In this document: piece after piece, positions 821 to 7,292 of the stretch
Layout of the letters: every line of letters begins with the position of its first letter
How positions within the stretch are numbered: position 1 is the first letter of the stretch
From: Desulfobacterales bacterium
Lineage (GTDB): Bacteria > Desulfobacterota > DSM-4660 > Desulfatiglandales > Desulfatiglandaceae
Direction of reading: 5' to 3'
Assembly (NCBI GenBank): GCA_014382905.1
Contig: JACNIU010000199.1
Coordinates: 1-34,378 of the forward strand
DNA: 34,378 bases
Made by a program: the position numbers and the translations under genes
The notes under the pieces: generated by a model
Told to the model about the DNA's origin: nothing
The model's input: only the letters and a program-made list of their open reading frames with translations
Databases searched by the model: none

Positions 821-1674
821 TTGGGCCGGGATGCGGCCGGGCCAGTCATCACCGAAACGTTTGTCACCCCAGTGAAATACGCTTCGCTGTCATTGACATG
901 AATTTCACGGGGTAAACAGTCATTCCAGTTCCACAGATCCCATGTCCTTAATCCCCAGTTAAGTGCCTTGAATCTATCAAGATCGCTTTTGCCCTCCAAC
1001 GCAATGGACCACACAAGAGGCTCTGCCCAACCATGCTTTTCAGCCACCTGTGGAACAGTAAATCCTTTCGATAAATCAGTATTTAGGAGAAATGCCAATT
1101 CTGGCATTTCTCCTAAATGGTTGTGAATTGTCTTTTGGTCTACTCCCATACGTCTTGCGATTCTACTCTGGGGGAAGCCCAGCCGGTGCATGCGGAATAT
1201 CTTGATGTCGAGGCCAAGCTGGGTTGCAGCGCGAAGATCGGCTATGTATGAGTCCACTGTCTGCCTTGAGCGTCCGATGGCCTTTCCAATATCTGCGGAG
1301 CGGAGACTGGTGTTTTTAGTGTATGCCCGTCGTGCGGTGTCTCTTGCCTCGTCTTCTGTCAACTGTTTGGGCCCGATTGCCTTTTTAGCCGCATAAAGGA
1401 GCGGATCTGTCCCTTCCAAATTTTCTATTATGATGGCATCAATCTCTGCCACGCCCACTGCTTTAAATGCGTTCCATCTATGCGCACCATCTAACAGGCG
1501 ATATTTGCCGGGCCTGTCAGGATCTGGTTGGACCTCGATAGGATCAAACTTGAAGCCATCCCTGATATTCTCCGCAAATATGCCAACCCGCTTCTGATCA
1601 ATCCCTTTTCGTGGATAGATCTCTTCATCTAAGATGATTGAGGAGATGGAAATTTTGGTTGTCGGTTTGGCCAT
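817..1674 (-). CDS. ParB/Spo0J-like nuclease-fold domain protein with HTH regions, C-terminus altered by an insertion
   Basis: The N-terminal ParB-like domain (about residues 8-100) contains LLDGAHRWNAFKA, matching the GxHRxxA motif of ParB/sulfiredoxin-fold proteins. Two helix-turn-helix-like segments follow (about 125-150 and 165-190), then a linker ending WDLWNWNDC. The last 32 residues come from a palindromic insertion and the out-of-frame start of the methyltransferase domain, so they are not native. In the related ParB-methylase fusions the ParB domain is thought to guide or regulate a methylase. It is not a chromosomal parB: there is no parA beside it and the architecture differs. The ATG at 1674 has a G-rich ribosome binding site (GGGGG). 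A sigma70-like promoter lies about 70 bases upstream. Confidence 0.75.
   Translation of the reverse strand: MAKPTTKISISSIILDEEIYPRKGIDQKRVGIFAENIRDGFKFDPIEVQPDPDRPGKYRLLDGAHRWNAFKAVGVAEIDAIIIENLEGTDPLLYAAKKAIGPKQLTEDEARDTARRAYTKNTSLRSADIGKAIGRSRQTVDSYIADLRAATQLGLDIKIFRMHRLGFPQSRIARRMGVDQKTIHNHLGEMPELAFLLNTDLSKGFTVPQVAEKHGWAEPLVWSIALEGKSDLDRFKALNWGLRTWDLWNWNDCLPREIHVNDSEAYFTGVTNVSVMTGPAASRPK
866..915. repeat. 50-bp palindromic insertion that breaks the ParB-methylase reading frame
   Basis: The segment is bounded by imperfect inverted arms: GTTTGTCACCCCAGTGAAAT at 859-878 and ATTTCACGGGGTAAAC at 902-917. The centre contains a second small palindrome, TGTCA-T-TGACA (889-899). Removing 50 bases (50 mod 3 = 2) fuses codon 253 of the ParB ORF (Cys) directly to GAC AAA CGT TTC of the methyltransferase frame, giving WNDCDKRFGDDWPG. 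The arms extend slightly into flanking coding sequence, so the exact insertion edges are uncertain. It resembles a REP- or MITE-like small palindromic element. Confidence 0.65.
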
Positions 1675-7184: not shown

Positions 7185-7227
7185 ACGGATAGGGCCTCAG
7201 CAGCTTGTTTCCGCCATATGTGTTTAC

Positions 7228-7270
7228 AGGTTCAGGGTTCAGATTTCGGCGGACCCTGAACCCTGAACCT
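7228..7270. repeat. Perfect 15-bp inverted repeat between livK and livH
   Basis: AGGTTCAGGGTTCAG (7228-7242) pairs perfectly with CTGAACCCTGAACCT (7256-7270) around a 13-base loop. The arms are themselves made of a repeated word (GGTTCAG). There is no T-run on the minus strand after it, so it is not a classic terminator. It could protect the abundant livK message or attenuate downstream livH. Confidence 0.8.
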
Positions 7271-7292
7271 TTCAACCCGTGAACGGTTAACG

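Follow-up and report, generated by a model that had tools for sequence, protein, structure and literature searches.

The question raised by this locus is whether a short palindromic segment lying between two adjoining reading frames is a mobile element that broke a single gene and, if so, how it was inserted. The window, which is the whole stretch of 34,378 nucleotides analysed, comes from a Desulfobacterales bacterium (GenBank assembly GCA_014382905.1, contig JACNIU010000199.1). On its minus strand, in different frames, lie a ParB-like ORF (positions 817 to 1674, 285 aa, from the ORF list) and an N6/N4 methylase ORF (positions 200 to 820, 206 aa, Pfam PF01555), whose start overlaps the stop of the ParB-like ORF as ATGA. 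The methylase retains FDPMAGGG and DPPY, and the ParB-like ORF matched ParB_N (PF02195) with 24.1 bits, slightly below the cut-off of 26.3, as well as HTH families. A sequence-only reading had proposed that a 50-bp palindromic segment (positions 866 to 915) interrupts a ParB-methylase fusion gene. Excision of this segment indeed restored a single frame of 474 aa with WNDC-DKRFGDDWPG at the joint, and the final 32 codons of the present ParB-like ORF run through the element and beyond, off the ancestral frame. The inverted arms described in that reading are genuine, with a single-strand DNA fold of z = -3.7. The boundary of the insert is uncertain by 1-2 bases, 866-915 being equivalent to 867-916, and positions 867-916 on the minus strand (TTTACCCC...CTGGGG) form the unit that matches other copies. 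The insertion target in the window gene was GACTG^TGAC, between the ParB-like and methylase halves.

Uninterrupted homologues from the same order, retrieved with the ParB half of the window gene, confirmed that the fusion had been interrupted. Twelve of them lack the 50 bp and read straight through the junction, mostly as W(N/T)DC-D(K/R)RFGD(D/E)WPG without an indel, and the length difference at the site was zero. Examples of the empty site are GGAATGACTGT followed by GACAAAAGATTC in locus L029 and GGAATGATTGT followed by GACCGGCG in L018, and the L029 DNA (GGAATGACTGTGACAAAAGATTC) in essence shows the site as it was before insertion. Taken together, the 12 uninterrupted homologues and the L029 sequence indicate that the insert is exactly 50 bp. 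The same genome has a second, decayed copy of the gene on a different contig (C42; 88% identity over 261 bp), in which the insert sits at the identical base and differs from that of the window at 2 of 50 positions. Since this diverged copy carries the same insert, an assembly error in a single contig is unlikely. Further ParB-methylase fragments, some of them rearranged or at contig ends, were seen on contigs C42, C88, C321, and C326 of this genome (G000).

A functional split of the gene, giving two translationally coupled proteins or relying on ribosome bypass of the 50 nt, would be suggested by the ATGA overlap and by the fact that both ORFs are open with the methylase motifs kept; coupled translation of the ParB-like and methylase ORFs is possible but unproven. 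However, the C42 copy with the same insert is a decayed pseudogene, none of the homologues examined is split at this point, and the gene family, present in several copies in related genomes, is often broken. In known translational bypassing the take-off and landing codons are matched, whereas the codons flanking the 50 nt differ (TGT and GGT), and bypass was rejected on this ground. We regard a functional split as very unlikely.

The sequence-only reading had also suggested that a small palindromic element in coding DNA might be dispersed, and blastn, a covariance model, and the empty sites all supported this. In this genome, blastn with the segment gave eight hits and a covariance model (R1), built together with the structure from a nine-copy alignment, gave 32 matches. 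Across the order, 63 of 85 genomes had matches at E <= 0.01 and 38 of 85 at E <= 1e-6. The element is rare in the phylum outside its order, as a draw of 247 genomes contained 11 with a match at E <= 1e-6, four of which belonged to the same order. When GTDB genomes were scanned for an exact pattern, 31 stretches were recovered, almost all of them in MAGs whose names place them in Desulfobacterota (Desulfobacteraceae, Desulfobacterales, Desulfatiglandales, 'Deltaproteobacteria'); a few carry a general label only. The checks of that reading that were run did not go against it, as further copies of the segment exist and homologues lack the insert.

Copies were mostly intergenic, with 17% within frames over 500 nt compared with 61% in the control, and most had unrelated flanks. 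Neighbouring copies were arranged head to tail, 23 in the same orientation and 1 in the opposite one. The element strand is C-rich, largely from local arrays, and a replication-strand bias was rejected as weak (just 28 of 42 negative at 1-4 kb). The element was absent from the viral contigs and the phage and plasmid collections searched, and carriage by phages or plasmids was discarded accordingly. Rfam gave no match above the gathering score and only sub-threshold miRNA matches, so a known RNA family was also rejected. Neither Rfam nor the literature searched (the sequence itself included, few subscription papers covered) yielded a description. The suggestion of an undescribed mobile repeat therefore holds for the sources searched, its newness being likely but unproven, and the hairpin class appears to be undescribed and abundant in uncultured sulfate reducers.

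The inserted element (TTTACCCCGTGAAATTCATGTCAATGACAGCGAAGCGTATTTCACTGGGG, positions 867 to 916 of the minus strand, equivalent to 866-915) was delimited by the 12 empty-site homologues and by a covariance-model match (864-916, 76.4 bits), and it folds into a three-way-junction hairpin with covarying arms. Along the minus strand, the 5' tag TTTA (positions 913 to 916), recognized from tag counts and a tag-dependent target preference, sits directly at the foot of the hairpin and is followed by the left arm of the outer stem, CCCCGTGAAAT (positions 902 to 912), which was defined by the fold and pair counts. Next come the inner hairpin TCAT-GTCA-ATGA (positions 890 to 901), whose sequence varies between copies while its pairing is kept, with three of the four pairs changed on both sides, and the mini-hairpin GCGAAGC (positions 881 to 887; family consensus GCGNAGC with a GNA loop). 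The right arm, ATTTCAC-T-GGGG with one base unpaired (positions 867 to 878), rests on the alignment and pair counts. The consensus layout reads tag, stem CCCC-GT(G/T)AAAT, short variable hairpin, ACA, GCGNAGC, G(Y), ATTT(C/A)AC, unpaired base, and GGGG. The covariation score was 0.216 compared with 0.095 for shuffled alignments, and none of 500 shuffles reached it. The N of GCGNAGC is free (A23 C9 G9 T5 in copies not chosen by pattern), and the stem around it is kept with three compensatory changes. As DNA, the heptamer d(GCGNAGC), closed by a GNA loop, forms a mini-hairpin of extraordinary stability (PMC4686876), which points to a probable role of the element as folded single-stranded DNA.

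The element belongs to a wider superfamily of hairpins with the same ends and other interiors, of which 77 were found in 461 kb compared with 2-3 in Markov controls. The most frequent 5' tags listed among these 77 were TTTA (27), CCTG (20), CTTG (8), and TTCA (5). Several superfamily hairpins are nested one inside another. In the nested cases at L071 12984-13069, L088 1735-1820, L111 4356-4431, and L018 2895-2989, a second same-ended hairpin lies within the GCGNAG loop or the inner hairpin of the first. Several copies of the element lie in the loop of a distinct dispersed repeat, cccgtcagggcttggt...GATCCTGG...CCAGGATC (L003, L004, L007, and L047, from C212, C199, and G024).

Some copies are common to species at the same place: two species (L096 and L111) have a 48-bp in-frame copy at the same position of an ORF that was read from its sequence as a DegT-type aminotransferase. 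Such sharing would be expected of an ancient structured RNA or terminator that no longer moves and was passively carried along by genome duplications. However, this explanation is at odds with the mostly unrelated flanks, the precise empty sites, the nested copies, the GNA loop, which is a DNA-stable motif, and the lack of an Rfam match above the gathering score, and we consider it extremely improbable.

The manner of insertion could be read from the surroundings of the copies. The flanks of 72 copies showed a 7-bp periodicity on each side, with the phase unbroken from one side of the element to the other: z was 7.7 at lag 7 and 8.2 at lag 14, and it stayed between -1.8 and 2.3 at lags 3-6 and 8-13. 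This unbroken phase indicates that nothing is duplicated or lost on insertion, in agreement with the empty sites of the window gene. The step [GC]^[CT] was present at 72% of the junctions compared with 25% in the flanks as background. Target bases -4, -3, and +2 differed between TTTA and CCTG/CTTG copies (permutation p < 0.001); many copies lie in related arrays, whose common descent may account for part of this dependence on the tag. The favoured targets are degenerate intergenic arrays of ~7-bp units (tgacctc, tcatttg, cgtcaat), for example in L115, L092, L109, and L101. Insertion always into hairpin loops was rejected, since folding of the joined flanks showed no excess (27% vs 26%), although several individual copies do sit in loops of related hairpins.

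These properties place the element near several known repeat systems. The analogy to a MITE, raised in the sequence-only reading, fails because there is no target-site duplication, as seen from the unchanged length of the empty sites and the kept phase of the arrays, and no parent IS sharing its ends was noticed. Its other analogy, to rickettsial palindromic elements (RPEs), is apt for behaviour, as copies can be intragenic, sometimes in frame, with one in an aminotransferase gene, but it breaks down on anatomy, as RPEs bear a CGTC tag (PMC3733652). The aligned copies have no CGTC end, and they further differ from CGTC repeats and RPEs by the three-way junction with its GNA mini-hairpin and by being mostly intergenic. 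Like REP and REPIN sequences with their RAYT (TnpA_REP) enzymes, the copies are imperfect palindromes of 20-65 nt whose 5' foot bears a 4-nt tag and whose arms covary; both are abundant between genes, are occasionally found within genes, and also have copies inside tnpA genes. However, the REP tag GTAG/GTGG is absent among the element tags listed, which are TTTA or CCTG/CTTG instead. The element also differs from REPs by its three-way junction and by its direct clusters (23:1), whereas inverted doublets (BIME/REPIN) are typical of REPs, and a consistent placement beside one rayt gene was not seen. With IS200/IS605 it shares a hairpin with a 5' guide-like tetranucleotide, the lack of target duplication, and a target preference, but it has no internal transposase, a single hairpin, and no fixed target tetranucleotide. 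An integron attC site was rejected, as there are no RYYYAAC / GTTRRRY core boxes and the aligned ends are TTTA/YYTG-CCCC and GGGG. The element behaves like REP/RPE-type repeats yet fails the defining tags of both.

We propose, with a probability of roughly 0.6, that the element is a REP-like, single-strand-active mobile hairpin that is moved in trans by an HUH (TnpA_Y1) enzyme. It is dispersed, precisely inserted, conserved in structure, biased in its targets, and nested; we infer that an HUH-family (TnpA_Y1) transposase moves it in trans, with the tag as a guide in the manner of REP and IS200/IS605. The 50 bp would then represent a single copy of a mobile, non-coding hairpin that is dispersed in uncultured Desulfobacterota and whose single-stranded form folds to a three-way junction with the 4-nt tag at its foot. 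Insertion is precise and adds the element alone, without target-site duplication, at a [GC]^[CT] step, preferably in short intergenic 7-bp-repeat arrays, but also in other hairpins of its kind and occasionally in genes. Entry at GACTG^TGAC would have shifted the frame of the fusion gene, and a later duplication of the insert with the gene would have given rise to the C42 copy. The single-strand transposase acting in trans, guided by the tag, would be of the TnpA_Y1 type, the candidate being a DnaA-domain enzyme resembling subclass 2.1 with copies upstream of and inside its genes. IS200/IS605 and REP enzymes insert single-stranded DNA without target-site duplication and use 5' guide tetranucleotides (PMC6006769, PMC2817692).

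TnpA_Y1 (PF01797) genes were found in 75 of the 85 genomes of the order. The C212 enzyme, a protein of 403 aa, combines the Y1 core and the YxxxNP signature with a C-terminus resembling DnaA_C (Bac_DnaA_C sub-threshold), and it scored 69.5 bits against the NCBIfam REP transposase model, below the cut-off of 80. Copies lie ~16 and 156 bp upstream of its gene, which itself contains an in-frame same-ended hairpin. Another TnpA_Y1 gene (G058:C533) has a copy in its 3' end, and a partial one (C57) has a copy at its start, as judged from the flank. Near 47 long-type TnpA_Y1 loci ~0.5 copies were expected, compared with a few loci that do have one; these counts are small, some of the loci are orthologous, and the hairpin of L166 is not placed beside the gene. 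Flanking as a general rule for TnpA_Y1 genes was rejected, as ~40 of the 47 long-type loci have no copy nearby. Copy number and TnpA_Y1 number were weakly correlated (rho 0.22, p 0.04). Our foremost candidate for the enzyme is the DnaA-domain TnpA_Y1 that has copies next to and within its gene, and this link is a lead and not a demonstration.

The lack of an enzyme consistently adjoining the copies, and head-to-tail clusters unlike REP doublets, would also suit a dispersed palindromic repeat that was spread by another recombinase or by replication/repair copying and not by an HUH enzyme. All the dispersal results would still hold in that case, and the engine alone would differ. However, insertion without target duplication, the DNA-type mini-hairpin, and the tag-dependent targets fit a single-strand transposase, and we judge such another route to be possible but clearly the less likely of the two. 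For the HUH-driven hairpin proposed here, the C212 enzyme resembles subclass 2.1.2 of TnpA_Y1, some members of subclass 2.1 having a Bac_DnaA_C domain (PMC6006769). According to the same study, subclass 2.1 genes have no identifiable REP-like structures nearby, and REPs within tnpA genes are known for other subclasses (PMC6006769); the C212-type association with hairpins differs from subclass 2.1 as described, though it is partial only. Tentatively, and with some doubt, the hairpins might be the missing substrates of DnaA-domain TnpA_Y1 (subclass 2.1), forming a new tag-guided REP-type system across Desulfobacterota. If true, this would be a REP-type system with its own tags (TTTA or CCTG/CTTG), fold, and target choice. 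The hairpins suggest a testable partner for a transposase subclass so far without one, and the tag offers a possible way in which such hairpins choose their targets. The hairpins also have natural, base-precise empty sites in uncultured sulfate reducers, and split genes in these draft genomes can be genuine hairpin insertions rather than sequencing errors.

Other palindromes were found in the ParB-methylase homologues. In L018 (G012), a different 36-bp same-ended hairpin lies in frame, and nested copies follow just past the stop. Elsewhere a CCTCCGGC...GGAG hairpin is inserted between residues 398 and 399 (L023 980-1013, L038 681-714, and L039 1714-1731, shortened in L039), and a GCC-rich hairpin lies at the DPPY motif in L029 (1168-1204). 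The ParB-methylase family appears prone to trapping palindromic insertions.

The ParB-like ORF of the window itself contains a perfect palindrome at positions 1081 to 1118, with 17-bp arms ATTTAGGAGAAATGCCA and TGGCATTTCTCCTAAAT. A palindrome is present at these codons in all 10 ungapped rows (window included), with arms that are different yet complementary (14.3 of 17 pairs vs 11.8 when partners were shuffled, p < 5e-4), and precisely these 12 codons are missing from L019. This is a candidate coding palindrome under covariation, which may be an operator, an mRNA hairpin, or an old palindromic insertion. Palindromes of the same form also occur outside the gene, grouped or paired 77-79 bp apart (L215 3145-3568; L216 3039 and 3116; L217 924 and 1003; L218 2953 and 3030; L219 4060 and 4138). 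They are nearly confined to genomes with ParB-methylase (7 of 9, hypergeometric p 2.5e-7, a value inflated by in-gene copies), and the extragenic ones could be putative binding sites of the ParB-like protein. Between transporter genes of the window, an inverted repeat at positions 7222 to 7276, with 21-nt arms that are 90% complementary and a 13-nt loop, is a candidate for a terminator-like structure or another repeat.
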